Positions 1 through 15,829 of a stretch of 35,947 nt of DNA are shown in pieces (within the stretch, counting starts at the first letter, position 1; each line of letters opens with the position of its first letter). The notes beneath the pieces were generated by a model that was not told the origin of the DNA, did no database searches, and saw only the letters and a list, made by a program, of their open reading frames with translations. The DNA comes from Vulcanimicrobiota bacterium. GTDB taxonomy: Bacteria; Vulcanimicrobiota; Vulcanimicrobiia; Eremiobacterales; Eremiobacteraceae. The stretch spans positions 1-35,947 of the forward strand of contig JAFAKE010000024.1 in NCBI GenBank assembly GCA_019235715.1. Direction: 5' to 3'. A program made the translations under genes and the position numbers.

Positions 1-771
1 GGGCGCGACGATAACGCGAGCGCCAACGCGAAGCGCACGGATTTCGTCGTTGAGCGCGCGCTGGTCGGAGATCTGCAGGCCGTCGGGCGCCCCGGCGTCG
101 TCCTGTGTGATCGCGAGCCACTGCAGGTCGCCAGACTCCGCCATGCGCACGAGCGTCTCATCGATGTCAAGGTCGCGCGCGCGCGCACCGATGTAATCCC
201 AGAATGCATCATCAGGGATTTGGCCGCGCCAGGCCGTCAACGCGTCGTTCTGCGCCGCTGATCGCGGCGTCGCGCCGGCATTACGCGCGTAGTCGGTGAG
301 TGCCTCTAGATAAGCTTCAGTGCGCGGCGTTTCCGTGGAAGCAAGGCGCATGATCGTTGCGAAGACATAAAGCGGTACGGCGGGATGCATCTCGTGGAAG
401 CGCGCCAGCGCAGCAACGCGGGCGCGCGCTGTCGCAAGCGGGGTGGCCGCGGTGCGCGAGCCGACCAAACCGCCGTATGCGAGCATGTCGGCGGACACGA
501 CGACTGCGCTGACACCGGTCGTGTCGAGATCGAGCAGCCAACGGGCGAGCGCATCGCCATCGCCCGCGTTCGAAAAATGTCCGAGCATCGACGCCGGCGG
601 CGTCGCCAGCTGCGCTCCGCAAATCGCAGACGTCAGCAGTGGGAATTGCGCCGTCGCGGGGCGGTCATCCAGCGGCATGAAGGCGATCCGGACGTCGGAG
701 GCCGCGAGAGCCGGCGCACGCGCGGACAGCGCAAGCGCCAGAAAAACAACGCCAAAAAACTTCTTGATCAG
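1..771 (-). CDS. DUF4127 family exported protein (partial, C-terminus off the left edge)
   Basis: The first 257 residues are present; the reading frame runs off the left edge. The protein opens with a clear signal peptide: two lysines at 3-4, a hydrophobic core at about 5-16 and an ALAA site near 21-24. The mature part starts with a PLDDRP motif at 33-38 and has an SADMLAYGGLVGSR stretch at 93-106. Both are hallmarks, as I remember them, of DUF4127, a family of about 500 residues with no assigned activity. There is no ATG, GTG or TTG in frame that would include the signal peptide. The best start is CTG at 771, which overlaps the livF stop as CTGA. The gene is last in the importer operon, so it may act outside the membrane on whatever the importer takes up; that is inference. 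Family call good, start moderately sure, function unknown. Confidence 0.8.
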   Translation of the reverse strand, partial: MIKKFFGVVFLALALSARAPALAASDVRIAFMPLDDRPATAQFPLLTSAICGAQLATPPASMLGHFSNAGDGDALARWLLDLDTTGVSAVVVSADMLAYGGLVGSRTAATPLATARARVAALARFHEMHPAVPLYVFATIMRLASTETPRTEAYLEALTDYARNAGATPRSAAQNDALTAWRGQIPDDAFWDYIGARARDLDIDETLVRMAESGDLQWLAITQDDAGAPDGLQISDQRALNDEIRALRVGARVIVAP

Positions 772-1466
772 ACGGACAAGTAGCGCTGCACGAGCTCCTG
801 ATCGTCGCGCAGCTGCGCGCTCGTGCCGGACGCGACGATGCGGCCATCCGAAAGCACGTGCGCCCGGTCGGATACGGCGAGCGCGACACGAGCGTTCTGC
901 TCGACGAGCAGCATCGTCATACCCTCGGCCTTCATCTCCATGATCGCCTTTTGGATCGCCTGTGCGACCACCGGCGCAAGCCCTTCCAAAGGCTCGTCGA
1001 GCAAGATGATGTCCGGGTTCTGGATCAGCGCGCGCGCAATCGTGAGCATCTGTTGCTCGCCGCCCGACAGCGACTTGCCCGCGTTGGTCTTGCGTTCGTC
1101 AAGCCGCGGGAAGAACGCGAAGACCTTCTTGTAATCCCATCGACCCTTGCGGCCGGCCAAGGTCGCCAGCTTGAGATTTTCGAGCACGGTCAGGTTCGGA
1201 AAAATGCGCCGCTCTTCGGGCACGTATGCGACGCCCTGCCGAGCGATCGTGTAGGGCTTCATGCCGGTGATGTCACGTCCATCAAGCGTGACGCTGCCGC
1301 GCTTCGGAGGCGTTACCCCGGCGATCGTCTTGAGCGTCGTACTGCGCCCCGATCCGTTGCGTCCGATGAGCGCGACCACTTCGCCCCGGTCCACATCGAC
1401 GGAAACGTCCTGCAGCACGTGGCTCTTGCCGTAATACGTATTCAACTCGCGCGCTTCCAGGAACAT
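768..1466 (-). CDS. livF: Branched-chain amino acid-type ABC transporter ATP-binding protein LivF
   Basis: This 232-aa protein is one of the two cytoplasmic ATPases of a HAAT-family importer, pairing with LivG under the LivH/LivM channel. The order is as expected: Walker A region at 35-43, an LSGGEQQML signature, a Walker B with LLDEPLEG, and the LivF-type VEQN in place of the H-loop histidine. The length is normal. Oddity: Walker A reads GRNGSGRST, so residue 41, the lysine that holds the ATP phosphates, is arginine (codon CGC at 1344-1346). Lys codons differ from CGC at all three bases, so a single base error cannot explain it. The ATG shares one base with the livG stop (TGATG), showing translational coupling. 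The stop is overlapped by the DUF4127 start. The true substrate may be other than Leu/Ile/Val. Confidence 0.93.
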   Translation of the reverse strand: MFLEARELNTYYGKSHVLQDVSVDVDRGEVVALIGRNGSGRSTTLKTIAGVTPPKRGSVTLDGRDITGMKPYTIARQGVAYVPEERRIFPNLTVLENLKLATLAGRKGRWDYKKVFAFFPRLDERKTNAGKSLSGGEQQMLTIARALIQNPDIILLDEPLEGLAPVVAQAIQKAIMEMKAEGMTMLLVEQNARVALAVSDRAHVLSDGRIVASGTSAQLRDDQELVQRYLSV

Positions 1467-2212
1467 CAGATCGCCGTTCCTAGATACGCCTGCTGCACGA
1501 GCGCGTTGCCTCTGATCTCGGCCGGTGACCCTTCGGCGATCTTGCGGCCGTTCTGCAGCACCGTGATCTGCTTGGAAAGCGACATGACGAGGTCCATGTC
1601 GTGCTCGATCAGCACGATCGTGTGCCGCTTCGCAAGGTCCTGCAGCATATCCATCGTCTGATGAGATTCGTCAAGCGACATGCCGGCGGTGGGCTCATCG
1701 AACAGCAAGAGCGTCGGATTTGCCGCGATGACCAAACCGATCTCCAGACGCTTCTCGTCGCCATGAGACAGCGTCGCCGCCTGCACGCGCGAGAACTGCG
1801 TCAAACCGACGCGCTCGATGATCTCTTGGGCCTTTTCGTCGACTTCATCAAGCCATTTCGGGCGAACGAGGATTCCCGGCGCATCGCCGTACGTCGCCTG
1901 CACGGCAACGCGCACGTTTTCGTAGACGCTCAGCCCACCGAAAATATTGCTTATCTGGAACGAGCGGCCGATGCCTTTGCGCGTGATGATGTGCGGCGGC
2001 AAGCCCGTGATGTCTTCATCGCGGAAGATGATCTTGCCGGCGGTCGGCGCGAAGTTCCCGGTGAGCATATTGAAGAACGTCGTCTTGCCCGCCCCGTTTG
2101 GGCCGATGATCGCATGGATCGTTCCCTCTTCGACCGCGAAGTCGACACCGTCCACCGCTTTCAGCGAATCGAAATACTTCGAAAGCCCTTCGGTGCGAAA
2201 GATCACGCTCAC
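1466..2212 (-). CDS. livG: Branched-chain amino acid-type ABC transporter ATP-binding protein LivG
   Basis: This 248-aa ATPase is the second nucleotide-binding subunit of the importer. Walker A GPNGAGKTT lies at 37-45 with the normal lysine, followed by an LSHGDEKRLEIG signature, Walker B LLLFDEPTAGM, and an H-loop in IEHDMD. The long insertion typical of LivG (GIGRSFQISNIFGGLSVYENV) is present. I chose GTG at 2212 as start because it overlaps the livM stop as GTGA and has a GCGGAG ribosome site about nine bases upstream; the frame stays open upstream, but the added residues look like noise and overlap livM. Since LivF carries a mutated Walker A lysine, LivG could supply the main ATPase site of the pair; that is inference. 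Confidence 0.95.
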   Translation of the reverse strand: MSVIFRTEGLSKYFDSLKAVDGVDFAVEEGTIHAIIGPNGAGKTTFFNMLTGNFAPTAGKIIFRDEDITGLPPHIITRKGIGRSFQISNIFGGLSVYENVRVAVQATYGDAPGILVRPKWLDEVDEKAQEIIERVGLTQFSRVQAATLSHGDEKRLEIGLVIAANPTLLLFDEPTAGMSLDESHQTMDMLQDLAKRHTIVLIEHDMDLVMSLSKQITVLQNGRKIAEGSPAEIRGNALVQQAYLGTAI

Positions 2213-3255
2213 GAAGCGTTCTCCGCACTCGCCTCGGGAGCACCTGCCGTCTTGCTTGCACGTCCGGCCCGCATGTTGCGCCACCAGGCCTCGGCCAGCC
2301 CCCAAATGCCCTGCGGCGCGAAAAGCACGAAGCCGACGAACACGATACCGATGTAGCCTTCCCAGAACTGCGTATAGTTGGAGACGTACTGCTGCATGAA
2401 CTTGAAAAGGCCGGCACCCAATATCGGACCCCAGAACGTCGGTGCGCCGCCAAGCAGCGTCATCATGACGATGTCGCCCGACTCGGTCCAGTTCATCTCG
2501 CCGGGATTGACCGCGCCGTCGTAGTAGCCGAGCAGCACGCCCGCGATCGCCGGCAACGTCGCCGAGAGCACGAACGCGTTGATCTTGTAACGTGTCACGT
2601 TGTAGCCCAAGAATTCCGCACGTTGCTTGTTCTCTCTAATCGCGTGACAGACCGCACCGAACGGCGAATGCACGACGCGCCACATGAACAGCGTCGCCAG
2701 CCACGCGATGACTGCGACCAGCACGTAGAAGTGAAGCTCGTTGTTCATGTTGAGCGGGCTGCCGGGCAGGATGTACGTCGGACGGGGAATGCCTTGCAAT
2801 CCGTCGTCGCCGCCCGTCACCGCGTTCCAGCGCTCGCCGATGAACAAAAGCACCTGGCCGACCGCCAGCATGAGCATCGAGAAATAGATGCCGGTGCTGC
2901 GCGGCACGATCACGCGCGCCAGGATGAACGCGAACAGCATGGTCGCCGCAAAGGCAAGGCCGAGCGCAGGCCACCAGGTCCAGCCGTGATTGAGGATCTG
3001 GTAGGCTGCGAAGTATCCGGCCAAGCCGATGAACGCGGCGTGACCGAACGACAACTCGCCGGTGTGCCCATATAACAAGTTGAACCCGAGCGCGGCGATG
3101 CCGAAGATGAGCATGTTCGTCGCCAGCGCCACATTGCTCTTGAGTACGTGCTGCATGAACCACGGCAAGAGCACGAGCACGATGGCCCACGCCGCGAGCG
3201 GCACGAGCCCGTTCCAGCTCGAGCGGCGATGGGCGCTTAACGCCGATGTCGCCAT
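2209..3255 (-). CDS. livM: Branched-chain amino acid-type ABC transporter permease LivM
   Basis: This 348-aa integral membrane protein is one half of the importer channel. It has many hydrophobic segments, beginning at about 18-33 and 45-60, and the LivM hallmark YGHTGELSFGHAAFIGLAGY at 62-81. The EAA-like loop that contacts the ATPases lies near the middle of the protein (GAVCHAIRENKQRAEFLGYN). The C-terminus is a short Ala-rich cytoplasmic tail. The ATG is fused to the livH stop (TGATG) and the stop overlaps the livG GTG, so livH, livM, livG and livF are translated as one coupled unit. Length and motifs match the family; the transported substrate cannot be read from the permease. Confidence 0.95.
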   Translation of the reverse strand: MATSALSAHRRSSWNGLVPLAAWAIVLVLLPWFMQHVLKSNVALATNMLIFGIAALGFNLLYGHTGELSFGHAAFIGLAGYFAAYQILNHGWTWWPALGLAFAATMLFAFILARVIVPRSTGIYFSMLMLAVGQVLLFIGERWNAVTGGDDGLQGIPRPTYILPGSPLNMNNELHFYVLVAVIAWLATLFMWRVVHSPFGAVCHAIRENKQRAEFLGYNVTRYKINAFVLSATLPAIAGVLLGYYDGAVNPGEMNWTESGDIVMMTLLGGAPTFWGPILGAGLFKFMQQYVSNYTQFWEGYIGIVFVGFVLFAPQGIWGLAEAWWRNMRAGRASKTAGAPEASAENAS

Positions 3256-4163
3256 CAGTCGAACAGGCCCTCTGCGCCGAACAAGCCGCGCGGCCGCACG
3301 AGCAGTATCAACAACATGAAAGCGAACGGCACGATGTCTTCTGCCGACGAACCGCCGGGGATCAGCTGAACGGTCAGCTCTTGCAGGAGCCCGATGATCA
3401 GGCCGCCGACGACCGCACCCCAGAACGAGCCGATGCCGCCGACGATCACCACAAGGAAAGCGATGATGATGTACGTCGCGCCCATGTTAGGATCGATATT
3501 GTACAGCGGCGCTTCAAGGCCGCCGGCGAGGCCGCCGAGTAATGATCCCAATCCGAACACGATTGTGAACGTCAGCGGCATGTTGATGCCGAGGATGCTG
3601 ACCATCTCGCTGTCGCGCGTACCGGCGCGAATGGTGAGGCCGAGATTCGTGCGCACGAGGATCAAGTACACGATGATCAGCACGAGGACGGTGAGCGCGA
3701 CGACCAGCAAGCGGAATGTCGGGTACTGCGAAAATCCGAGGTTGATCGAACCGGCGAGGAATCCGGTGGGCGAGAGCGGCTGGGGCGTATCGCCCCATAT
3801 CTTGCGGATGATCTGCACGATGATCAAGAAGGCGCCAAACGTGAACATCAGCACGTGCTCGGGCGGCCTGCTGTACAGCCGCCTGATGAAGGTGCTCTCC
3901 ATGATCATGCCGAGCACCGCCATGCACAGCGCGGCGGCGATGATCGCCGGGAACAGTCCGAGGCGTTGCGACAGCGTGAACGTAATGTAGGCGCCCAGCG
4001 CGAAAAACGCCCCGTGTGCGAAGTTGATGACGCCCATCAGGCCGAGGATGATGTTGAGGCCGAGGGCCAGCAATACGTAGAGCATGCCGCGGGTGAGGCC
4101 GTCGAAAATCGTCGCGATCATTTGATTCGGCATGATCGTGAGATAGACGGTCGCGAGTGGCAT
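3255..4163 (-). CDS. livH: Branched-chain amino acid-type ABC transporter permease LivH
   Basis: This 302-aa integral membrane protein is the other half of the importer channel. The hallmark ALGLNIILGLMGVINFAHGAFFALGAYI lies at 33-60 (shown in parts: LNIILG, VINFAHG, LGAYI), with further hydrophobic segments to the end and an EAA-type loop RAGTRDSEMVSILGIN. Two start codons are possible: ATG at 4163 or ATG at 4133 (MPNQMIATIFDGL), the latter closer to usual family N-termini; neither has a clear ribosome site. It is the second gene of the operon, 97 bases after the binding-protein gene, and that gap holds a strong hairpin. The stop is fused to the livM start. Confidence 0.94.
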   Translation of the reverse strand: MPLATVYLTIMPNQMIATIFDGLTRGMLYVLLALGLNIILGLMGVINFAHGAFFALGAYITFTLSQRLGLFPAIIAAALCMAVLGMIMESTFIRRLYSRPPEHVLMFTFGAFLIIVQIIRKIWGDTPQPLSPTGFLAGSINLGFSQYPTFRLLVVALTVLVLIIVYLILVRTNLGLTIRAGTRDSEMVSILGINMPLTFTIVFGLGSLLGGLAGGLEAPLYNIDPNMGATYIIIAFLVVIVGGIGSFWGAVVGGLIIGLLQELTVQLIPGGSSAEDIVPFAFMLLILLVRPRGLFGAEGLFD

Positions 4164-4206
4164 CAGCGCAGCTAGATTAAGCGTCGTGCCCTCCGTTATG
4201 CTCGAA

Positions 4207-4230
4207 GGCGCCGGTGTGCCGGCCGGCGCC
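4207..4230 (-). terminator. Intercistronic hairpin between binding-protein gene and livH
   Basis: There is a perfect 8-base inverted repeat, GGCGCCGG at 4207-4214 and CCGGCGCC at 4223-4230, with an 8-base loop. No T-run follows on the minus strand, so it is unlikely to be a full terminator. Hairpins at this place in importer operons commonly stabilise the upstream message or cause partial termination, giving more binding protein than permease. That role is inferred. Confidence 0.5.
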
Positions 4231-4260
4231 TCCTCATGTCATCGTTCCTGCTGCTTTCGG

Positions 4261-5592
4261 TTAGGCTCTGCTCTTGGGCGTGTAGCCTTCCCGCGTCGGA
4301 ATCGTCTGTTGCGCGAGCTTGGCGGGTGCGTCGCTCTTGTCGCAGGGCTCGAGCGTGTCACTCGCCGGCACGATCTGGTTGATCTTGAAGAACTGATTCG
4401 GGAATTTCCATTGCGACTTCGGAATGGCCTCGGTGACGAGCACGTCCAGCTCATTCTGATGGTCGCAGGCACGGATGTGGCAGAACTTCTTCTGCAACCC
4501 GTTGAACGTCAGCCCTTCGATCGCGGAGACGAGACGCGTCGCCTCGGTCGTGCCCGCGCGCAGAATGCCGGTGATCGCCGCTTCGCACGCAAGCCATCCC
4601 AGGTACATGCGCCAGTCGACGTACTGCGCACCCGCTGCGCGCAGCTTTTGGCCGAGCTGTTTGGAGCCATCGGTCGGATAGTCCGGCGCCCACGGCGCGC
4701 CCCAGATGCCCCGGTTGTTCTCCGCGCCGTAGCCCAGGCCGACCTCGACGCCGTTGAGCGGGCCGCCGACCTGCTTGAACACTTTGTCGAGGCCGAGCTG
4801 CACGTACTGCTTCATGCCGTTGACGAGATCGCCGCCGTACCAGCTGAGCACGAGCACATCCGCGCCGCTGTTCTTCGCCTTGGTCAGCTGCGCGGTGAAG
4901 TCGCCGGAGTTGGTTGGAAACGCGGTAAGCTCGTTGCCGAGCGACTGTCCGCCGTTGGCCTCGAGCACCGCCTGGAATCCGGCTTGCGCCGAGTGTCCGT
5001 ATGCGTAGTCGGGCGTGATGAAGAACCACTTCTTCCCGTAGGGCAGCAGCGCTTTGGCGGTCGCGTTCGCAAGCATCGAGTTGGCGGCGGTCGTGCGGAA
5101 GCAGCACGGATGCGCGTTGCTGCCGGTGATCGTCGTGTCGTGCGTGCCGGCGGCGACGAACACGATGCCGAGACGCTGCGCCAGCGCTGAGAGCGCAAGG
5201 CCGACGCCCGAGGAGACCTCGCCGACGAGAACGTCGACCTTGTCTTGCTCGACGAGCTTTGTGGCGTTGGGAACGGCGACGTCTGGCTTGGCCGCGGTGT
5301 CGGCATGGATCAGCTGGATCTTGCGGCCGAGGACGCCGCCGCGCGCGTTCCATTCCTCGACGCAGACCTTCTTGCCGAGCGACTGGCTGCCGCCGCTCAC
5401 CGCGTATACGCCGCTGCTCTCGTCGACGTCGCCGATGAGGATCGGTTCGTTGTCCGCCACGCTGGCGGGTGAGTAGCCGAGTTGGGTCGCGACCCCGGCA
5501 CCCGCGCCTGCAGCCGCTGCTGCCGCGATGCCGACGCCGCTCAAGAAATCCTTTCGGGAAAGCGCCGCACCAACGCGATCGGATTTCGACAT
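4261..5592 (-). CDS. Periplasmic substrate-binding protein of HAAT-type ABC importer
   Basis: This 443-aa protein captures substrate outside the membrane for the LivHMGF importer. The N-terminus has a twin-arginine-like SRKDFL at 12-17 (RK rather than RR), then an Ala/Gly-rich hydrophobic stretch at 19-34, suggesting Tat or Sec export. From about 51 it follows the Leu/Ile/Val-binding fold (PF13458/PF13433 type): ILIGDVDESSGVYAVSG, NARGGVLGRKI, and a central PDYAYGHS segment. The sequence looks more like amide-, urea- or aromatic-binding members than classical LivK, so the substrate is open. A strong AAGGGGGAG ribosome site sits just before the ATG. It heads the operon and probably has its own promoter in the divergent gap to its right. 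Confidence 0.9.
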   Translation of the reverse strand: MSKSDRVGAALSRKDFLSGVGIAAAAAAGAGAGVATQLGYSPASVADNEPILIGDVDESSGVYAVSGGSQSLGKKVCVEEWNARGGVLGRKIQLIHADTAAKPDVAVPNATKLVEQDKVDVLVGEVSSGVGLALSALAQRLGIVFVAAGTHDTTITGSNAHPCCFRTTAANSMLANATAKALLPYGKKWFFITPDYAYGHSAQAGFQAVLEANGGQSLGNELTAFPTNSGDFTAQLTKAKNSGADVLVLSWYGGDLVNGMKQYVQLGLDKVFKQVGGPLNGVEVGLGYGAENNRGIWGAPWAPDYPTDGSKQLGQKLRAAGAQYVDWRMYLGWLACEAAITGILRAGTTEATRLVSAIEGLTFNGLQKKFCHIRACDHQNELDVLVTEAIPKSQWKFPNQFFKINQIVPASDTLEPCDKSDAPAKLAQQTIPTREGYTPKSRA

Positions 5593-6384: not shown

Positions 6385-6410
6385 TCGACGCGACGACCTC
6401 TCGCGTGCAG

Positions 6411-6442
6411 GCGCGGGCCAGCCCAGGCCCGCGCTCTTGCTT
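6411..6442 (+). terminator. Rho-independent terminator-like hairpin
   Basis: A perfect 9-base inverted repeat, GCGCGGGCC at 6411-6419 and GGCCCGCGC at 6426-6434, encloses a 6-base loop and is followed by TCTTGCTT. It lies 27 bases after the secreted-protein stop. The T tail is imperfect, but the stem is very stable and well placed. Confidence 0.65.
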
Positions 6443-6491
6443 CATCTCGGCGCAGGCGGGTTTGATTTCGGACGCCAAGGCTGACGGCGCG

Positions 6492-7421
6492 ATGCGCATC
6501 GTGAGCCTGCTGCCCAGCGCGACCGAGATCGTCTACGCATTGGGCGCGGGCGACGAACTCGTGGGCGTCACCCATGAGTGCGATTATCCGCCGCAAGCGC
6601 GCTCGAAGACGGCGCTCACCGCGAGCTCTTTGCCGCCGGCCTCGACGGCAGATGCCGCGGCGATCGACCGCCACGTCCGCGAGCGCCTTCACGCGGGCTC
6701 TTCGATCTATTCGCTCGATGCGGCGTTGCTGGCTCAGCTCGAGCCCGACCTGATCATCACCCAAGAGCTGTGTCCGGTGTGCGCGGTCTCCTACGAGCAA
6801 GTCGGCACCGCTATCAAACGGCTGCGCACCGACCCGCGTCTCGTTGCGCTCGAGCCCTCAAGCCTCGAAGATGTGTATCGCACCATCGAATCGATCGGCG
6901 AGCTCATCGACAGGCGCGATGCTGCACGACGATTGGTCGCAGGCCTTCAAGTGCGCGAGAGGGCGTTGCGCGCGTGCGCGGCGCAAGTAGAAGAGCCTCT
7001 GCCGCGCGTGCTCGTGCTTGAGTGGACCGATCCGCCGATGGGCGGCGGACATTGGACACCCGGGCTTGTCGAGCTGGCGGGCGGCGATCCCGTTCTGGCT
7101 CATCGCGGTGCCGATTCGCAGCGGCTCGAGTGGGATGCGATCGCTGCGGCGGATCCGGATGTCATCATCGTCGCTCCATGCGGATTCGATCTGAATGCCG
7201 CGCTGCGAGCCGTGCGCGCGTTAGCGGACCTGCCTCAATGGCGCTCGTTGCGCGCCGTGCGCGGCGGTCGCGTCGCGGTGGTGGACGGCAATGCGTACGT
7301 CAACCGCCCGGGGCCGCGGCTCATCGACTCGGCGGAGATATTCGCTGCCGCCATCCATCCGCAACTCGCGGCTTTGCTGCCGCGCTATGACGACGGCTGG
7401 ACTATGCCAGCGCGCGTCTAA
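6492..7421 (+). CDS. BtuF-like (cobalamin-type) substrate-binding protein without signal peptide
   Basis: This 309-aa protein belongs to the class III periplasmic-binding fold of BtuF/FepB (PF01497). It begins at once with MRIVSLLPSATEIVYALG, contains THECDYP, a TQELCPVCAVSY stretch with a CPVC motif near residue 97, and ends with the typical PGPRLIDSAE helix. Family members bind cobalamin or iron chelates for an ABC importer. No signal peptide or lipobox precedes the fold; an in-frame ATG at 6405 adds 29 residues that do not look like an export signal. No btuC/btuD-like genes are nearby, so it is an orphan. A cytoplasmic corrinoid-binding role is possible. The conserved Cys pair could bind the ligand or a metal; that is inference. 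Confidence 0.82.
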   Translation: MRIVSLLPSATEIVYALGAGDELVGVTHECDYPPQARSKTALTASSLPPASTADAAAIDRHVRERLHAGSSIYSLDAALLAQLEPDLIITQELCPVCAVSYEQVGTAIKRLRTDPRLVALEPSSLEDVYRTIESIGELIDRRDAARRLVAGLQVRERALRACAAQVEEPLPRVLVLEWTDPPMGGGHWTPGLVELAGGDPVLAHRGADSQRLEWDAIAAADPDVIIVAPCGFDLNAALRAVRALADLPQWRSLRAVRGGRVAVVDGNAYVNRPGPRLIDSAEIFAAAIHPQLAALLPRYDDGWTMPARV

Positions 7422-8298
7422 GATTCCCGTCGCAGCTCGCCAGGACAGCGCGCGCGTCTGCGACCGAACAGCCGCGAAGCAACATGACGACGGCGGTCTT
7501 GACTTCGTAGTCGGCCGACTCGAGCGCCGCGGAGGCATCCGGTTCTTGCGCGTGCGCGAGCAGTGCCGTCATGCGCAGCGCACGGCGGCGCAGCTTCGCA
7601 CTGCTAGGCGCGACGTCGACCATCAGATTGCCGTGCACGTGCCCGAGTTTGACCATCACGGCCGTGCTCAGCATGGTCAAGGCCATTTTCTGCGCCGCTG
7701 CTGCCTTCATACGGGTTGAGCCCGTCACGGCTTCGGCTCCGGTCAGCAGCGCCATGGGAATGGCGACGCGCCGGGTGAGCGGATTGCGGACGTCGTTGGT
7801 GATGCCGATCGTCAGCGCGCCCGCCGCATGCGCGGCACCGACGGCGGCGAGGACATAGGGCGTGCGCCCGCTTGCAGAAATGCCGACGACGACATCACTG
7901 TCTCCGATGTGCGCTGCCGACACCTCGGCTGCGCCGGCAGGGCCATCGTCTTCTGCACCTTCGATCGCTTGCATAAGCGCCGCGGGACCGCCGGCGATGT
8001 GCGCGACGACCAGATCGGCCGGCGTTGAAAAGGTGGGCGGCAGCTCCGCAGCGTCGGCCGCAGCGATGCGCCCGCTCGTACCGGCGCCGAAATAGTGCAG
8101 ACGTCCACCCTCACGCAACCGTTGCACGACCGCGTCGACCGCCGTGCCGATGACGTCGAGCTCTCGCTCAACGGCCCATGCGGCCCTGCGATCCTCATCG
8201 TTGATGCGATGCAGCAACTCGTGCGTGTCCAGCAGATCGAGATCGCCGGTCGATGGATTGACCTCCTCGGTGAGCGGCAGCGGCGTCCGATCATCCAT
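7402..8298 (-). CDS. murQ: N-acetylmuramic acid 6-phosphate etherase MurQ
   Basis: This 298-aa cytoplasmic SIS-fold enzyme cleaves the lactyl ether of MurNAc-6-P to GlcNAc-6-P and D-lactate. The sugar-phosphate loop FGAGTSGRIAAADAAELPPTF lies at about 70-90, EGAEDD follows at 113-118, and SGRTPYVLAA and GSTRMKAAAAQK come later. E85 and E116 match the two catalytic glutamates of the E. coli enzyme (E83, E114) by position. The start at 8298 lies one base after the kinase stop and has GGAGGG upstream. It is the last gene of the recycling operon, matching the chemistry order. Its 3' end overlaps the convergent BtuF-like gene by 20 bases. Confidence 0.95.
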   Translation of the reverse strand: MDDRTPLPLTEEVNPSTGDLDLLDTHELLHRINDEDRRAAWAVERELDVIGTAVDAVVQRLREGGRLHYFGAGTSGRIAAADAAELPPTFSTPADLVVAHIAGGPAALMQAIEGAEDDGPAGAAEVSAAHIGDSDVVVGISASGRTPYVLAAVGAAHAAGALTIGITNDVRNPLTRRVAIPMALLTGAEAVTGSTRMKAAAAQKMALTMLSTAVMVKLGHVHGNLMVDVAPSSAKLRRRALRMTALLAHAQEPDASAALESADYEVKTAVVMLLRGCSVADARAVLASCDGNLRRALA

Positions 8299-8299
8299 C

Positions 8300-9256
8300 T
8301 TATACAGCTCCCTCCGCCACCAATTCGAGAGCCAACAATGCCGCTGCACGCGCGGCGTCGCCCCGTGCGCGGCGCACGTCGGCGGTCGGATCCGCTGACA
8401 GCACGTTCGCCACGATCGTCGCCAGCCTCGGCACCGCGTCGAACGCACCTCCCCACAAGCCGATCGGGAGGGGATCACCGCTCTCGCCGCGCCCGCCATC
8501 GCGGAGCGAACGAGCGACCTGCGCGGCAAGTGCGGACAAGCGAGCGCCTTGCTCGTCGACGATCGCACGGGCCGCGATATCCCCAAGCGCATCTGCGCGA
8601 GCGACGAGCGGCGCCAACGCCGCGATGCGCGCGATCGCATCACCGTTTGCGAGCAGCGACCCGCTTAGCTCGGAAGCATCCGCGGCGCCCAGCGACGAGG
8701 CGACCGCCGCCGAAAGCTCACCGCTCGTGATCACACCATCGAGCGCTTGCGCGGTCGCGAGCGCAGCCGCGGCGCCGATCGCGAAGGAGCTACCCGCATC
8801 GCCGATAAGCGCGCCATAACCACCTGCGCGAAGCGACGTCCCGTCCGCGCGCTCGCCATACGCGAGCGATCCCGTTCCCGCGATGACGATCATCGCGGGC
8901 CGCGCGCTGCTGAACGCGCGCAATGCGATACAGCCGTCGTGCACGACGCGAACCGCTGTTCCTGAAGGCATGAGCTGGCTCAGCACCCGGCGCAGCGCAT
9001 CTGCCTGTTCCGGCCGCCCGGCACCGGCGGCGCCGATGCACACGGCCGCAACGTTTTCGTGGGCGGTCAGATCCGACAGGACGCGCTGCAGATTGCTCTC
9101 GACCAGAGGCTCGGAAAGCGCGAGTATGTTGCCGCCACCGGCAGAGGCTCGTGCGACTTGCGCACCGTCTGCCGCCACCAACACGCCGTTCGTGTGCGTC
9201 GCACCCGCGTCGATCCCGATCGCGAACGGGCCGGACGCCGTCACGGCTGCGCCCAC
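8300..9256 (-). CDS. BadF/BadG-type sugar kinase, probable MurNAc/GlcNAc kinase (MurK-like)
   Basis: This 318-aa protein is an ASKHA-fold kinase of the BadF/BadG/BcrA/BcrD family, which includes N-acetylglucosamine kinases and the clostridial MurNAc/GlcNAc kinase MurK. The phosphate-1 loop GIDAGATHTNGVLV is at 14-27; VHDGCIAL and IAGTGSLAY follow, with a GGYGALIGDAGSS adenosine/phosphate region near 147-159. Between anmK and murQ it most likely phosphorylates free MurNAc or GlcNAc released by NagZ and the AmiE-like enzyme. The start is GTG at 9256, overlapping anmK by 16 bases; GTG at 9244, overlapping the anmK stop as GTGA, is as likely. No benzoyl-CoA reductase genes are near, arguing against the other branch of the family. 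Confidence 0.85.
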   Translation of the reverse strand: MGAAVTASGPFAIGIDAGATHTNGVLVAADGAQVARASAGGGNILALSEPLVESNLQRVLSDLTAHENVAAVCIGAAGAGRPEQADALRRVLSQLMPSGTAVRVVHDGCIALRAFSSARPAMIVIAGTGSLAYGERADGTSLRAGGYGALIGDAGSSFAIGAAAALATAQALDGVITSGELSAAVASSLGAADASELSGSLLANGDAIARIAALAPLVARADALGDIAARAIVDEQGARLSALAAQVARSLRDGGRGESGDPLPIGLWGGAFDAVPRLATIVANVLSADPTADVRRARGDAARAAALLALELVAEGAV

Positions 9257-10422
9257 AACGCGCGCATCAGCGCTAGAAAGTTCTTGCCCGGGGCGATGAG
9301 GCCCATGATTACTCCGCTACGCGCTCCGGTCGCAGACGGAAGATTGTTCGCGCGGCCGTGCAGCGTTTCGTGAGCGAGCACGGCGAAGACCATCGCTTCT
9401 TTTGCATCGACGGGCATGCCGAACGCATCGGAACGCTCGATGACCGCGCGCACCGACCGCTTGTCGAGCTCGTCCTGCAGCATCGTCATCAGCGCGCGAT
9501 TGTGCACGCCTCCGCCCGACACGATCATGCGGTCGCACTCGCGAGGTACGGCGGCTGCGATCGTGTGCGCCGTCAGCGCGGTGACGCTCGCGATGAGATT
9601 CGGCCCTGTCACGCCCAGATTCGCCGCGCGTTGCAGCACGTCGCCCGCATATGCTTCGCCGAATTCTTCGCGGCCGGTCGATTTCGGACTGGGCCTGCGA
9701 AACCACGGCTCTTCCATGAGCTCGTCGACCAGCGCTTGCGACACGCGCCCGCTTTGCGCCAGCGCTCCACCGCGGTCGTAGCGGTGCACGCCATGCGACT
9801 CGAAGCGCATGCACGCGTCGATGAGCATGTTGCCCGGGCCGGTGTCGAATGCGCGGACCTCTTCTGGCCCGCAGCCCGCCGGCAGCCACGTGACGTTGGC
9901 GATGCCGCCTATGTTGAGCGCGACGCGATGTTCGTTGTCGCTGCGCAGCAGCAGATAGTCGACGAACGGTACGAGCGGTGCGCCTTCGCCGCCCGCTGCG
10001 ACGTCGGCGACGCGAAAGTCGCCGACTGCGGTCACGCCGGTCAGCTGCGCGATGATCGCCGGCGAACCCACCTGCAGCGTCGCGCGCGTCTCCGGGCGCC
10101 CGGACGTCATGTGGTACAGCGTCTGTCCGTGCGAGCCGATCGCATCGACGCTCGCAAGATCGATGCCCGCGCGCGTGCACAGCCGCGAGACGGCGTCGGC
10201 AAACGCCTCGGCGATGCGCGCGTTGAGCGCGCATACGTCTCGCGTGCTGCCCTGTTTTGGGGGAAGCGCAGCCTCGAGCGCCGCGCGCAGTTCGGCTGAG
10301 TATGGAGTGGTCGCGTGACCCAACAGCGAGATGTCGAGCCCGTCGCCGTGGCGCTCGACGTCGATCGCGGCGGCGTCGATGCCGTCGAGCGACGTGCCGG
10401 ACATCAGGCCGATGATGCGCAT
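9241..10422 (-). CDS. anmK: Anhydro-N-acetylmuramic acid kinase AnmK
   Basis: This 393-aa cytoplasmic kinase opens the 1,6-anhydro ring of anhMurNAc and phosphorylates it to MurNAc-6-P, the substrate of MurQ. The N-terminal GLMSGTSLDGID loop is at 5-16, GSHGQTLYH at 97-104, and AFDTGPGNMLIDA at 191-203 with D193 in the place of the E. coli catalytic Asp (D182). A late VSGGGVHNRALM completes the ATP site. AnmK is needed only where lytic transglycosylases make anhydro ends, which is usual in diderm bacteria. The ATG overlaps the stop of the serine-hydrolase gene by one base, and its own 3' end overlaps the next kinase. Confidence 0.95.
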   Translation of the reverse strand: MRIIGLMSGTSLDGIDAAAIDVERHGDGLDISLLGHATTPYSAELRAALEAALPPKQGSTRDVCALNARIAEAFADAVSRLCTRAGIDLASVDAIGSHGQTLYHMTSGRPETRATLQVGSPAIIAQLTGVTAVGDFRVADVAAGGEGAPLVPFVDYLLLRSDNEHRVALNIGGIANVTWLPAGCGPEEVRAFDTGPGNMLIDACMRFESHGVHRYDRGGALAQSGRVSQALVDELMEEPWFRRPSPKSTGREEFGEAYAGDVLQRAANLGVTGPNLIASVTALTAHTIAAAVPRECDRMIVSGGGVHNRALMTMLQDELDKRSVRAVIERSDAFGMPVDAKEAMVFAVLAHETLHGRANNLPSATGARSGVIMGLIAPGKNFLALMRALWAQP

Positions 10423-11525
10423 CAGCCGCTTCGGTCGAATCGAGTCGACCGCTCCAAGTCCGCGATCACGGCTTCATTGACGGCGGCGCGCAGATCCGCG
10501 ATTGGCACGGGATCGCGGCTGACGTACACGCGATTGGTCAGCAGCACAATGGTCAGCGCGCGCGTGGGATCGACGAACAGCGACGTCCCCGTGTAGCCGG
10601 TGTGTCCGTACGATGCGCGAGAGAGCAGGGATCCCCACGGACGATTATCGCCGGGCTTGATGGCCCACGCCAGACCGCGGCGCTCGTCATCGCCATGCGC
10701 ATGTTCGCGCACGGCGGTTTGTGCCGTCGGCCGCTCGAGCACGCGCCGGCCGAGATATTGGCCGGCTTGCCGGTACATCTCGCCCAACTTCGCGACATCG
10801 TCGGCCGTTCCGAAAAGCCCGGCGTGTCCGGCGACGCCTCCCATCGACCAGCATGTCTCATCGTGCACTTCACCGCACAGCAATCGGCCGCGCCATGCGT
10901 CGCGCTCCGTGCAGACGGTGCGCTCGAGTATCGGGCCGCGGGGATTGTATCCGCAGCTGCCGATCGCCAGCGGATCAAATGTCGACGTCTGAAGGGCGAT
11001 GGGCAGCGGCACACCGGCCAAACGCGACACCGCCTCGCCGACTAAGATGAAGCCGCAATCCGAGTAGACGACGCGTTCGCCCGGAGCGGCGGCAAGCGGC
11101 GTCGCACACACGCGGTTCACCACTTGCGTGAGACCGGGTTCTGCGCGCGCGTTGACGCTCGGCGGCAGGCCCGACGTGTGCGTCAACAGGTGGCGAAAGC
11201 TGACGGTCGCGCGCCGCGCATCGCGTCCGGCGAACTCAGGCAGCGTCGCGACGATTGGATCGTCCAACGCAAAGCGCCGGCGATCGAGCAGCGTGAGCAG
11301 CGCGGTTCCAACGGCGATCTTCGTGAGCGACGCGAGGTCGAAAACCGATTGCTCGGTCGCGGCTGCTCCGTCCGGCGCAACCGAGCCGAACGCCGCCTCG
11401 CAGACAGGCTCGCCAGATTGTCGCACGTGCAGCACCGCGCACGAGCATACACCGCCGATCGCATTTTCGACGAGGGCGAGCGCGCGCGGCACTCCGACAT
11501 CCGACGGGCCGGTGGCGTCGATCAT
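10422..11525 (-). CDS. Serine hydrolase of the beta-lactamase/AmiE family, probable MurNAc-L-Ala amidase
   Basis: This 367-aa protein has the class C beta-lactamase fold (PF00144): SLTK at 66-69 with the nucleophile S66, YSD at 154-156, and GHTG at 307-310. The stretch MGGVAGHAGLFGTADD at about 228-243 is typical of the Bacillus AmiE (YbbE) group, which cuts the bond between MurNAc and the stem peptide. Position between nagZ and anmK supports that role over beta-lactam hydrolysis or esterase activity. Unlike Bacillus AmiE, no signal peptide is seen, so it would act in the cytoplasm, together with the signal-less NagZ. The ATG overlaps the nagZ stop as ATGA. Amidase activity is inferred from family and context. 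Confidence 0.85.
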   Translation of the reverse strand: MIDATGPSDVGVPRALALVENAIGGVCSCAVLHVRQSGEPVCEAAFGSVAPDGAAATEQSVFDLASLTKIAVGTALLTLLDRRRFALDDPIVATLPEFAGRDARRATVSFRHLLTHTSGLPPSVNARAEPGLTQVVNRVCATPLAAAPGERVVYSDCGFILVGEAVSRLAGVPLPIALQTSTFDPLAIGSCGYNPRGPILERTVCTERDAWRGRLLCGEVHDETCWSMGGVAGHAGLFGTADDVAKLGEMYRQAGQYLGRRVLERPTAQTAVREHAHGDDERRGLAWAIKPGDNRPWGSLLSRASYGHTGYTGTSLFVDPTRALTIVLLTNRVYVSRDPVPIADLRAAVNEAVIADLERSTRFDRSG

Positions 11526-13081
11526 GCGCGTGCTTCGTCGGCGTGCTGCGCGAGCGGTACCGGCACACGGCCCGGTGCTGCCGCGCTTCCCAGCAACACT
11601 TCGGCCGCCGCGTACAAGCTCGCATCGCTGTCGCCGAACGTTGCGATCACCGCCATCTCGCCGGGGATCGCGGTTGCATCGTATGGCTCGAGCGCTGCCA
11701 CTGCGACCACCGGCTTGCCGAACAGCGCGAGATCGGCCACCGCGCGCGCTTGCAGCGGATGCGCCGACGCACGCCGGGTGATCGCTACGAACGCGTCGGC
11801 CGTTTGTGCCGCGAGCAGCAGCTGCTTGTATTCATGGCCCGCCGGATCCAAGTCGCGCAATTGCTCCGTCGCGTGCAAGCCGGCGGCTGCGAGCGCACGG
11901 CCAAGCGCGCTTTCAACGCGCGCGCCACTTGCCTTCGATGGCCCGCCTTCGGTGAAGTTGATGATGAGAACGCGCGCGCCGGGCTGCAGGCCTAAGGGCG
12001 GCACGCCGCCGCGCGCACGCACGAGCGCCACGGCGCGCGACGCGACAGCGCGCGCCAAACTTGCTCCGTCGCGCGGCGTCACGCTGGTTCGGGGCTGCGT
12101 CGTCCTCGCACGCACGCGTTCGACTCGCGTGAGACTGGCCTCGACGTCTTCTGACTGAAGCCGCCCGTCCGCCAGCGCCGCGCGCAGCGCTGCAAGCGCG
12201 CGCCGCGCCGCATCCATTTCAGCGTAGACAAGCACGTCGATGCCCGCGCGCACGCTGAGCACTGCCGCTTCTTCGAGCGTGACGCCGGCGCCCACGCCTT
12301 TCATCTGCATGTCGTCGGAACATATGACTCCTTGGAATCCAAGTTCGTCGCGCAGCACGCTTTTGAGCAGCGTGCGCGAGCGCGTCGCAGGAACCGATTC
12401 TTCATCGAGCGCCGGGACTTGGAGATGACCCGCCATCACACAATCGACGCCGGTCGCGATCGCGGCGCGAAATGGAGCGAGATCGACGTCGCGGATGTGG
12501 CGCTGCGTCTGGTCCAAGGCGACCGTGCTGACATGCGTATCTTCGCGAGCACCGCCGTGCCCGGGAAAATGTTTGGCCGTCGCAGCGATGCCGGCGTCGT
12601 GCAGGCCTTCAATCGCCGCGCTCACGTGTGCGGCGACCGCATCGGCGTCTGCCCCGAACGAACGCAAGCCGATGACCGAGTTCGACGGGTCGGTGTTCAC
12701 GTCTGCGACCGGCGCAAAATCGAGGCTGATGCCGAGCTCGCGCGCGTCGTTGCCGATGCGTGCGTACACCTCGCGCGTGATGGAGGGATCGCCTGCAGCG
12801 CCGAGCGCCATGGCGGCCGGCGCCCAGCTGCCGAGCGCATCCATGCGCGTCACCGGACCTCCCTCTTCGTCGACGGCGATGAGCAACGGCGCGCGAGCGG
12901 GCGAGCGTGCGTTTTGCAGCGCGCTGACGAGCGCCCGCACCTGTTCTACGGTGGCGATATTGTGGCGAAAGAGGACGGCTCCGGCCGTCCCCGCAATGAA
13001 ATGGGCCGCCTCATCCGTGACGGTAGCGCCCGGCAATCCCGTCAGGATCAGACCGCCAAGCCGGTCTGCGAGCTCCTCCAC
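11522..13081 (-). CDS. nagZ: Beta-N-acetylhexosaminidase NagZ (GH3), two-domain
   Basis: This 519-aa glycoside hydrolase removes GlcNAc from muropeptides. The N-terminal GH3 barrel has DEEGGPVTR at 71-79, KHFPGHG at 170-176, the His general-acid loop DTH at 181-183, and ICSDDM at 253-258 with nucleophile D256. About 190 further residues form a second alpha/beta domain, as in Bacillus NagZ and unlike the single-domain E. coli enzyme. No signal peptide or lipobox is present, so it should be cytoplasmic. I chose GTG at 13081 because CGGAGGAG precedes it closely; a GTG at 13123 in frame would add 14 unlikely residues. It is the first gene of the recycling operon, divergent from the M16 peptidase gene across 66 bases. 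Confidence 0.93.
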   Translation of the reverse strand: MEELADRLGGLILTGLPGATVTDEAAHFIAGTAGAVLFRHNIATVEQVRALVSALQNARSPARAPLLIAVDEEGGPVTRMDALGSWAPAAMALGAAGDPSITREVYARIGNDARELGISLDFAPVADVNTDPSNSVIGLRSFGADADAVAAHVSAAIEGLHDAGIAATAKHFPGHGGAREDTHVSTVALDQTQRHIRDVDLAPFRAAIATGVDCVMAGHLQVPALDEESVPATRSRTLLKSVLRDELGFQGVICSDDMQMKGVGAGVTLEEAAVLSVRAGIDVLVYAEMDAARRALAALRAALADGRLQSEDVEASLTRVERVRARTTQPRTSVTPRDGASLARAVASRAVALVRARGGVPPLGLQPGARVLIINFTEGGPSKASGARVESALGRALAAAGLHATEQLRDLDPAGHEYKQLLLAAQTADAFVAITRRASAHPLQARAVADLALFGKPVVAVAALEPYDATAIPGEMAVIATFGDSDASLYAAAEVLLGSAAAPGRVPVPLAQHADEARA

Positions 13082-13085
13082 TCGG

Positions 13086-13093
13086 CTCCTCCG
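13086..13093 (-). promoter_or_regulatory. Ribosome binding site deciding the nagZ start
   Basis: CGGAGGAG on the minus strand lies four bases before the GTG at 13081, and favours this start over the upstream GTG at 13123. The 66-base divergent gap 13082-13147 must also hold the promoters of both nagZ and the M16 gene; I see no clear -10/-35 pair in it. Confidence 0.6.
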
Positions 13094-13147
13094 AGGACCC
13101 GTACAAGGGCGCTCGACGCGCACCCTCTCATCTAGGAGATTTCTCGC

Positions 13148-15829
13148 GTGAATCGATCGCTCTTCGTTCTCGCATGCATCGCCGCGGCTGTCTTGAGCCT
13201 GTGTGTGCCACCGTCTGCAGCACGCGCCGACGAGACCGCGACCTCAGTGACCCGCGCGACGCTCGCCAATGGACTGCGCGTCATCATCGTACGCGATCCG
13301 CTCGCGCCGGTCGTCAATGCGGACATGGTATACCTTGTCGGCTCAGATGAAACGCCTGCGGGATATCCCGGGATGGCGCACGCGCAGGAGCATATGGCGT
13401 TCGGCCGCGGCATGAACGGCCTGAGCGCCGATCAGCTCGCCGACATCGGCACGCTGATGGGCTCGGATGACAACGCCGAAACGCAGAACACGATCACGCA
13501 ATATTTCTATACCGTGCCTGCGAAGGATTTGCCGTACGCGCTGCACGTGTTCGCCATCCAAGCGCGCGGCGTGCTCGACTCGCAAGCGGAGTGGGCGCAA
13601 GAGCGCGGCGCGATCGAGCAAGAGGTCGCGCGCGATCTTTCCAATCCGTTCTATCGCTTCTTCGCGGCCGCACAAGAGCACATGTTCGCCGGCACGCCGT
13701 ACGCGCACGACGCGCTCGGCACGCGTCCGTCGTTCGACAAGACCACCGGCGCGATGCTCAAGCAGTTCTACGACACCTGGTATTATCCGAATAACGCGGT
13801 GCTCGTCATCACCGGCGACATCGACGCGCAAGCGACCTTGACGATGGTGAAGACGCTCTTCGCGAACGTGGCGCGTCACAACGTTCCGGCGCGGCCCGCC
13901 GTCCGGCTGCAAGCGCTCAAGGCGCAGACGATCGCGCTCGATAGCGACCAGCCCTTCGCGGTCGCCTTCGTCGGCTACCGGTTGCCCGGCATCGACAGTC
14001 CGGATTTCGCCGCGTCGACTATTTTGGGCGACGTGCTCGCAAGCCAGCGCGGCGACATCTACGCGCTTGGTCCCGAGGGTAAGGCGCTGCAGGCCGGCTT
14101 CTTCCCGGGCGCCACGCTGCCGAAGTCGTCCGCGGGCTTCACCTACGCGGCGCTTCCGCCGGGGGCGGATACGAAGGCGATGGCGCAAACGCTCAAAGAC
14201 CTGATCGACGCATATAAGAAGAGCGGCGTGCCCGCCGATCTGGTGGACGCCGCCAAGCGCAAAGCCGTCGCGCAGGCAGAGTTCGACCGCAATTCGATCT
14301 CCGGCCTCGCGCAGACGTGGGTCGAAGCGACGACGGTCTTCGGTCTTTCTTCGCCCGATGAGATCGTGCGCAAGCTGCAAGCGGTGAGCGTGGATGACGT
14401 CAATCGCGTGCTGCGCAAGTATTTCGACAACTCGACTGCGCTGGTCGGCATCCTCAACCCCAAACCCGCCGGACAGCCGAGCACGGCAAAGGGTTTCGGC
14501 GGCGTCGAGTCGTTCGCGCCGACCAAAGCGACGAAGACGACGCTGCCTTCGTGGGCGCAGGGTCTGCTCGCCACGGCATCCGTGCCGAATTCCACGCTGA
14601 GCCCGGTCGCAACGACGCTGCCCAACGGTCTGAAGCTCATCGTGCAGACCGAGCACATCAGCCCGACGGTCACCGTCGTCGGACAAGTGAAGAACAATCC
14701 GGATCTTCAGACGCCGGTAGGCCAAGAAGGAGTGGACGGCGTGCTTGACGGCATGTTCGATTATGGTACGACGACGCTGGACCGGATCGCATATCGCAAA
14801 GCGCTCGATGACATCGGCGCCGATGCAAGTGCCGGCACCGACTTCTCCTTGAGCGTCTTATCCTCTCAGTTCGATCGCGGTATGCAGCTGCTCGCGGACG
14901 GCGAGCTGCACCCGGCGCTGCCGGCGACGGCATTTCCGATCGTGCAGCAGCAAACGGCCGGCTACATCGGCGGCCAATTGACGAGCCCGGATTACCTGAC
15001 TGAAATCGCGCTGACCAAGGCGCTCTATCCGCCGGCCGACCCGCAGCAACGCGAACCGACGCCCGACACCGTTAAAGCGCTGACCCTCGATGACGTCAAG
15101 GCGTATTATCAAAAAGTCTTCCGTCCGGATCTTACGGCGATCGTCGTCATCGGCGACATCACGCCCGACGATGCGAAGGCATCGGTCGAGAAGTGGTTCG
15201 GCGGCTGGACCGCAACGGGACCGACGCCGCAGACCGATTACCCGGCGGCGCCGAACAATGGCCCGGCATCAGTGAACGTGCCGGCGACCGGACGCGTGCA
15301 AGACTCGGTGACGCTCAAAGAGACGATCGGCGTGTTGCGCAGCGACCCTGACTACTACACGCTGCGCGTCGGCGGCTCCATCCTCGGCGGCGGCTTCTAT
15401 TCGTCGCGCTTGTCCGTTGATGTCCGCCAGAAAGCCGGACTTGTGTACAGCATCGCGCAGAGTTTCGATATCGGCAAGACGCGCAGCACCTTTGGGGTCG
15501 ACTACGGCTGCGATCCGCCCAATGTCTCAAAGGCGCGCGCGCTGATCGAAAAGGACGTGCGCGACATGCAAACCACCGTCGTCTCAAGCGAAGAACTGCA
15601 ACGTTCTAAGACCGAACTGCTTGCCTCGCTGCCGCTTTCCGAATCGAGCGAGCAGAGCGTCGCCTTAGGGCTGCTGCGCCGTACGCAAGCCGGGCTTCCG
15701 CTCGACGAGCCCGTGCGCGCGGCCAATCGCTATGTGGCGACCACCGGCGAGCAGGTCCGGGACGCTTTTGCGAAGTGGATACGGATTCCCGATCTCGTTC
15801 AGGTCGTGACCGGCCCCGCGCCAAAATGA
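13148..15829 (+). CDS. Exported M16 family zinc metallopeptidase (two M16 domains)
   Basis: This 893-aa protein starts with a signal peptide (hydrophobic 5-21, cleavage near ARA at 25-27). The first M16 domain has the inverted zinc motif HAQEH at 78-82 and the third ligand probably E159 in AIEQEV, with the EMAF-like FGRGMNG after the motif. A second M16-type half begins near 480 (ATTLPNGLKLIVQTE) and lacks HXXEH, as usual for the inactive partner half, but keeps GGGFYSSRLSVDVRQKAGLVYS. Such pitrilysin-like enzymes degrade peptides in the periplasm. The start is GTG at 13148 with AGGAG ten bases upstream. The neighbour downstream is an outer-membrane protein; any link is inference. Confidence 0.93.
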   Translation: MNRSLFVLACIAAAVLSLCVPPSAARADETATSVTRATLANGLRVIIVRDPLAPVVNADMVYLVGSDETPAGYPGMAHAQEHMAFGRGMNGLSADQLADIGTLMGSDDNAETQNTITQYFYTVPAKDLPYALHVFAIQARGVLDSQAEWAQERGAIEQEVARDLSNPFYRFFAAAQEHMFAGTPYAHDALGTRPSFDKTTGAMLKQFYDTWYYPNNAVLVITGDIDAQATLTMVKTLFANVARHNVPARPAVRLQALKAQTIALDSDQPFAVAFVGYRLPGIDSPDFAASTILGDVLASQRGDIYALGPEGKALQAGFFPGATLPKSSAGFTYAALPPGADTKAMAQTLKDLIDAYKKSGVPADLVDAAKRKAVAQAEFDRNSISGLAQTWVEATTVFGLSSPDEIVRKLQAVSVDDVNRVLRKYFDNSTALVGILNPKPAGQPSTAKGFGGVESFAPTKATKTTLPSWAQGLLATASVPNSTLSPVATTLPNGLKLIVQTEHISPTVTVVGQVKNNPDLQTPVGQEGVDGVLDGMFDYGTTTLDRIAYRKALDDIGADASAGTDFSLSVLSSQFDRGMQLLADGELHPALPATAFPIVQQQTAGYIGGQLTSPDYLTEIALTKALYPPADPQQREPTPDTVKALTLDDVKAYYQKVFRPDLTAIVVIGDITPDDAKASVEKWFGGWTATGPTPQTDYPAAPNNGPASVNVPATGRVQDSVTLKETIGVLRSDPDYYTLRVGGSILGGGFYSSRLSVDVRQKAGLVYSIAQSFDIGKTRSTFGVDYGCDPPNVSKARALIEKDVRDMQTTVVSSEELQRSKTELLASLPLSESSEQSVALGLLRRTQAGLPLDEPVRAANRYVATTGEQVRDAFAKWIRIPDLVQVVTGPAPK

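Follow-up and report, generated by a model that had tools for sequence, protein, structure and literature searches.

In Escherichia coli, peptidoglycan recycling relies on the cytoplasmic enzymes NagZ, AnmK, MurQ and NagA, and the system includes AmpG, AmpD and MurR. In Bacillus subtilis, the cluster murQ-murR-murP-amiE-nagZ-ybbC (namZ) provides NagZ, AmiE and MurQ functions, with NagZ and AmiE extracellular, the phosphotransferase system (PTS) protein MurP and MurR present, and neither AnmK nor MurK in the cluster (PMC5061867). A third arrangement is found in Agrobacterium, an AmpG-less diderm that imports muropeptides through the ATP-binding cassette (ABC) transporter YejBEF-YepA (PMC9790009). 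We analyzed a 35,947-nt stretch of DNA, hereafter the window, which is contig JAFAKE010000024.1 (contig 21) of the assembly GCA_019235715.1 (2.5 Mb, 96% complete) of a Vulcanimicrobiota bacterium of the Eremiobacteraceae. Its minus strand carries, between positions 7402 and 13123, nagZ, a PF00144 serine hydrolase gene, anmK, a BadF-type kinase gene and murQ, in that order. This operon likely serves the cytoplasmic recycling of the cell's own peptidoglycan, from (anhydro)muropeptides to N-acetylglucosamine 6-phosphate (GlcNAc-6-P), with the hydrolase in place of AmpD and with a MurK-like kinase. NagZ, AnmK, MurQ and a NagA homologue are thus shared with E. coli and the NagZ, AmiE-like and MurQ functions with B. 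subtilis, whereas AmpG, AmpD and MurR of E. coli were not found here and the genes lie in one operon.

The five genes, which had been proposed in a first-pass annotation of the DNA as an operon ending at murQ, indeed lie on one strand within 5.7 kb, and their family assignments hold. They are nagZ (11522–13123), the hydrolase gene (10422–11525), anmK (9241–10422), the kinase gene (8300–9244) and murQ (7402–8298), all with their catalytic motifs kept. Successive genes overlap or abut: the junctions read ATGA for nagZ/hydrolase, with the hydrolase ATG overlapping the nagZ stop, TGATG for hydrolase/anmK and GTGA for anmK/kinase, while kinase and murQ are one base apart. Because of these stop/start overlaps and the one-base gap, translation of the five genes is probably coupled. 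The nagZ start is either GTG 13123 or GTG 13081, and that of the kinase is most likely GTG 9244, overlapping the anmK stop. The 413-residue open reading frame (ORF) listed for MurQ extends too far upstream; the protein in fact begins at ATG 8298 and has 298 residues. Upstream, a divergent M16 peptidase gene starts at 13148.

We compared the locus with 61 genomes of the class, with families numbered f1–f3 and genera (g), genomes (G) and loci (L) numbered likewise. AnmK is present in 54 of the 61 genomes. Among 51 anmK loci read, 33 are complete, with the five genes on one strand, and 13 have all but the kinase gene; the remaining loci miss a gene, some of them lying at contig ends. Two of the 33 full loci seem order-swapped because stop-to-stop ORFs were used. 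The operon is kept in loci from three families; it is conserved across the class and no chance assembly. The surroundings vary: in f2 and f3, a MalK/UgpC-type ABC ATPase gene is often found upstream of nagZ and a DUF4127 gene downstream of murQ, and in much of f1 the last kinase gene is separated from murQ by a gene for a secreted protein that matches no Pfam family, or for an S-layer homology (SLH) porin-like protein as read from sequence. The Pfam-less secreted family, of about 230–250 residues, precedes murQ in seven f1 genomes (for instance L036:6850-7611, L034:6070-6768 and L056:8712-9665). The class has a cultured member, Vulcanimicrobium alpinus WC8-2 (Ca. Eremiobacterota), with an inner membrane, a thin peptidoglycan and an outer membrane with lipopolysaccharide (PMC9758169), so that the predictions made here can be tested.

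In the proposed pathway, MltG and SLT lytic transglycosylases together with muramidases would release GlcNAc-anhydro-MurNAc-peptides and GlcNAc-MurNAc-peptides (MurNAc, N-acetylmuramic acid), which an importer other than AmpG, most likely an ABC transporter, would take in. Cytoplasmic NagZ would then take off GlcNAc, and the AmiE/PBP4B-type hydrolase would cleave the peptide from (anhydro)MurNAc, the step of AmpD in E. coli. AnmK would convert anhydro-MurNAc to MurNAc-6-P and the MurK-type kinase would phosphorylate GlcNAc and reducing-end MurNAc. Finally, MurQ would turn MurNAc-6-P into GlcNAc-6-P, to be deacetylated by a NagA homologue encoded elsewhere. We infer from sequence all of these activities, which substrates the hydrolase and the kinase prefer, and the nature of the importer.

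The remaining genes of the pathway were sought by single-family searches at curated cut-offs. MltG and SLT transglycosylases are both present in 17 of 17 genomes tested, with three SLT proteins in the window's own genome, and anhydro ends should therefore form. The NagA homologue (C61:70962-71909), which appears to share an operon with a putative phosphohexomutase gene, scores 204 bits, below the cut-off of 226, and this counts against the proposed pathway. The first-pass annotation had noted that MurR, AmpG and PTS genes are missing, and none lies within the five-gene interval; the RpiR/MurR regulator family was not found in the own genome either. It had also suggested looking for ampG elsewhere: no AmpG exceeded the cut-off in any of the 61 genomes, with E. 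coli among the control genomes that did give a match. An AmpG hidden among weak matches to the major facilitator superfamily (MFS) was considered and rejected, as the best score in the own genome, 21 bits, lies far below the cut-off of 350. Amidase_2/AmpD gave no match in the own genome and weak matches alone in 5 of 17 genomes. With an assembly 96% complete, single absences are not proof; AmpG, however, is missing from all 61 genomes. A complete AmpG-less and AmpD-less route is thus predicted, conserved in a class of Gram-negatives that has been seen chiefly through metagenomes.

NagZ is a 533-residue protein of family GH3 (PF00933, 6e-78) that aligns over its full length with the two-domain structure 6k5j, in line with its earlier description as a two-domain enzyme. 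The KHFPGHG motif, the Asp-x-His dyad and the catalytic Asp are found in 48 of 48 gap-free relatives, one of which has Lys in place of the second His of KHFPGHG; here and below, motif counts (about 50 relatives) were taken from aligned columns. The predicted activity is the removal of GlcNAc from muropeptides. The hydrolase (PF00144, 3e-53) has PBP4B as its best NCBIfam model, at 124 bits against a cut-off of 385. E. coli PBP4B/YfeW, whose gene sits in murQ-murP-yfeW, was used as the reference in place of B. subtilis AmiE: the two proteins are 31% identical, and the SxxK, YSD, HTG and VHDE motifs of the hydrolase, all shared with PBP4B/YfeW, are kept by 50 or more of the 51 relatives. Scanning genome contigs with the hydrolase as query returned two matches, both weak. 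The lack of signal peptides on both proteins, already noted from the window, holds across the class in a simple hydropathy test: none was detected in 34 NagZ sequences or in 43 hydrolase sequences, the latter including that of the window, compared with 35 of 38 for DUF4127 as secreted control. The chemistry of both enzymes is therefore predicted to be cytoplasmic. For the same reason the hydrolase is termed AmiE-like and not AmiE proper, AmiE being secreted.

PF00144 is a family with many esterases and peptidases, and the top solved match of the hydrolase is the esterase 1ci8, while many class C β-lactamase models match it weakly; these points weigh against an amidase. The protein could then be a co-transcribed esterase, D-amino-acid peptidase or β-lactamase. 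We find this improbable, given its fixed place between nagZ and anmK throughout the class, the recurrence of its partners in Deinococcus and Thermomicrobium (see below), the VHDE signature common to PBP4B, the missing secretion signal, unlike a β-lactamase, and the lack of AmpD-type amidases in the own genome. The assignment as a predicted (anhydro)MurNAc-L-alanine amidase offers a testable AmpD replacement, a PBP4B/AmiE-type serine hydrolase without secretion signal.

AnmK (PF03702, 2e-103) scores 430 bits with NF007148, above the cut-off of 387, keeps the ATP and sugar motifs SGTSxDG, DxGPG and KSTGRE and is encoded by a single-copy gene in the own genome. By sequence, the solved structures closest to it (9241–10422) are levoglucosan kinases, at 261 bits versus 205 for the best AnmK chain. 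MurQ scores 304 bits with TIGR00274 (cut-off 302) and is 42% identical to E. coli MurQ over 289 residues, with GAGTSGR and the catalytic Glu conserved across relatives.

The second kinase belongs to PF01869 (3e-23). Its nearest solved protein by profile is MurK of Clostridium acetobutylicum (8zo3, 220 bits), which phosphorylates both GlcNAc and MurNAc (PMC6721243), and its structural model (predicted local distance difference test, pLDDT, 94) also matches 8zo3 best, with a template modelling (TM) score of 0.88 and a root-mean-square deviation of 2.1. The substrate-binding residues give a mixed picture. In MurK of Tannerella forsythia, S133-P134-L135 and T94 have been named as determinants of MurNAc recognition (PMC10465942); in our alignment, the window kinase has Gly-Gly-Tyr and His at these positions. 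Small residues at 133–134 and a residue at 94 that does not clash would leave room for the lactyl ether. His in place of T94 is said to disfavour MurNAc and occurs in the hexokinase of S. tokodaii, and human NagK has Gly at the P134 position (PMC10465942). The Asn lining the N-acetyl pocket is kept. A plain GlcNAc kinase in the role of NagK, with only anhydro-MurNAc reaching MurQ through AnmK and reducing-end MurNAc left unused, is accordingly a serious contender, which we place somewhat short of an even chance. It agrees with the residues just listed, with the cytoplasmic GlcNAc that NagZ must yield and with the failure to find NamZ in the window's own genus, a gap that bears on the supply of reducing-end MurNAc. 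It sits less well with the dual-substrate C. acetobutylicum MurK being the closest solved relative by sequence and by fold, with the lack of a bulky Glu or His at the lactyl position, and with NamZ being encoded in 54 of the 61 genomes and secreted in both sequences read, so that it should supply MurNAc. Apart from the T94 position and the missing NamZ, two observations on the kinase weigh against the proposed pathway: the score lies far below the NagK cut-off, and several genomes of g12 and g27 yielded no kinase in the operon, only a paralogue beside a nanE-like gene. The earlier proposal that two kinases act at this locus is supported, but the use of both anhydro- and reducing-end MurNAc is less sure, as the second kinase may serve mainly the GlcNAc freed by NagZ.

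In the f1 genera g3 and g4, the operon is without the kinase gene, but a close relative of the operon kinase is encoded elsewhere in the genome and loss of the kinase was rejected on this ground. In f2 genomes, a BadF kinase paralogue adjoins a gene read as nanE, and nearly all of these paralogues miss the N-acetyl-pocket Asn. At loci L097-L112 of this family, the paralogue is grouped with the NanE-like epimerase gene, an FAD-dependent oxidoreductase-like gene and cytochrome oxidase-like genes.

Gene sets of this kind recur outside the class. On a plasmid of Deinococcus sp. KNUC1210 (MF271_RS01360-RS01400), all five genes likewise occur together, with a hydrolase devoid of signal peptide, in one stretch that reads anmK-hydrolase-nagZ-ABC binding protein-permease-permease-kinase-murQ-GntR; it differs by its gene order and by the ABC binding protein, two permeases and GntR regulator inside it. 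The megaplasmid of Thermomicrobium roseum (TRD_RS12390-RS12420) groups nagA, an AmiE-type hydrolase gene, also without signal peptide, anmK, a β-N-acetylhexosaminidase gene, a BadF kinase gene and murQ, but in two convergent units; the hexosaminidase may be of another family, as it does not match the window NagZ. One list of down-regulated genes in D. radiodurans includes murQ, anmK and the gene for a peptide ABC binding protein (PMC8136434). The module is therefore recurrent and is probably supplied by ABC import. We found no open-licence paper describing this operon in Deinococcus or Chloroflexi, or treating AmiE, NagZ, AnmK, MurQ and MurK together.

The first-pass annotation had read the locus as a hybrid of Bacillus and Gram-negative parts, in which the extracellular chemistry of Bacillus had moved to the cytoplasm. 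This does not stand up well: ordinary Gram-negatives have their NagZ in the cytoplasm (PMC5061867), the hydrolase has E. coli PBP4B/YfeW among its relatives as well, and the same five functions co-occur, with unsecreted hydrolases, in Deinococcus and Thermomicrobium, which makes the set a recurrent module and not evidently a Bacillus transplant. The word hybrid thus overstates the case; the operon is a coherent variant of known recycling, its enzymes familiar and its set unlike the E. coli or Bacillus versions.

The operon might instead serve to feed on the walls of other bacteria that have died. The secreted NamZ that most of the class encodes, a secreted DUF4127 protein and an ABC transporter encoded nearby, and similar gene sets on haloarchaeal plasmids would fit such scavenging. 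We regard it as doubtful, since the lytic transglycosylases and AnmK suggest anhydro ends that come from the cell's own wall, the operon is near-universal at one copy per genome, as is typical of housekeeping, and the own genus is without NamZ. Among the haloarchaea, the Halorussus limi plasmid NZ_CP096661.1 (13596-32750, L119) groups AnmK, a peptidoglycan-recognition protein, an AmiE-like hydrolase, a NamZ-type DUF1343 protein, NagZ and an ABC transporter; Haladaptatus gave AnmK and hydrolase matches of the same kind. Haloarchaea are not known to have murein, and the plasmid set possibly reflects scavenging of bacterial walls by archaea.

Recycling of own peptidoglycan in the absence of AmpG raises the question of how muropeptides enter the cell. 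In the window, a candidate LIV/Urt-type ABC importer is encoded on the minus strand (768–5592), with genes for a binding protein (4261–5592), two permeases (3255–4163 and 2209–3255) and two ATPases (1466–2305 and 768–1466); the matches to NCBIfam UrtB/C/D/E-like models all fall below their cut-offs and the binding protein is not UrtA. The Agrobacterium importer is of the peptide type, whereas the candidates linked here are of LIV/Urt type in the window or include a MalK/UgpC-type ATPase in relatives. The ABC operon lies 1.8 kb beyond murQ and its last gene, on the same strand, encodes a DUF4127 protein with a signal peptide (1–768, upper boundary approximate; PF13552, 2e-55, above the Pfam cut-off). 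The gene is cut by the contig end to its N-terminal half, which is 66% identical to a full-length homologue of the same genus. The same ABC order ending in DUF4127 is repeated in relatives (L084, L090, L091 and L092), and in the loci of 40 relatives DUF4127 lies downstream of murQ without a change of strand. Within f1, just four genomes gave a DUF4127 match (G000, G001, G002 and G006), all with the gene after a LIV/Urt-type ABC operon; in G000, G002 and G006 this operon is on the contig of murQ, within about 5 to 8 kb. Elsewhere, DUF4127 accompanies nagZ and sugar ABC genes in Deinococcus, and nanE, ROK kinase, PTS and RpiR genes in Priestia and Carnobacterium; in Alkaliphilus, it is without such neighbours.

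The conserved motifs DDRP, SxDMxxYGG, QDDAG and LPWxRTFE suggest that DUF4127 is an enzyme. Its model (pLDDT 88, predicted TM score 0.90) has no analogue among solved structures, the best TM score being about 0.3, and no paper on the family was found in the open-licence literature. From these neighbourhoods we infer a link, which is new, between DUF4127 and the recycling pathway, the first functional lead for the family so far found. A bolder proposal is that DUF4127 is an undescribed secreted cell-wall enzyme at the front of the pathway, for example one that trims muropeptides or amino sugars prior to import, and that the LIV/Urt-type transporter represents a novel type of muropeptide importer in place of AmpG; we hold this combination to be rather unlikely.

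Several minor features complete the picture of the window and its genome. A Peripla_BP_2 (BtuF-like) gene on the plus strand (6405–7421) meets murQ tail to tail, the two 3′ ends overlapping. All 17 genomes tested encode one or more PTS EIIC proteins; that of the own genome is an orphan of the cellobiose type outside the five-gene interval. This orphan EIIC (L127:6735-8825, L128-L131) is conserved throughout the class, with a MetI-like gene next to it and lexA nearby, and in several genomes also adjoins a Peptidase C26 gene. An efflux-like MFS gene (L132:3567-4787) directly precedes nagA, among the genomes read only in the window's genus (g1) and g5; this restriction and its resemblance to efflux MFS proteins led us to reject it as a general importer. 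The genomes with this insertion are those that carry the LIV-type ABC/DUF4127 cassette.

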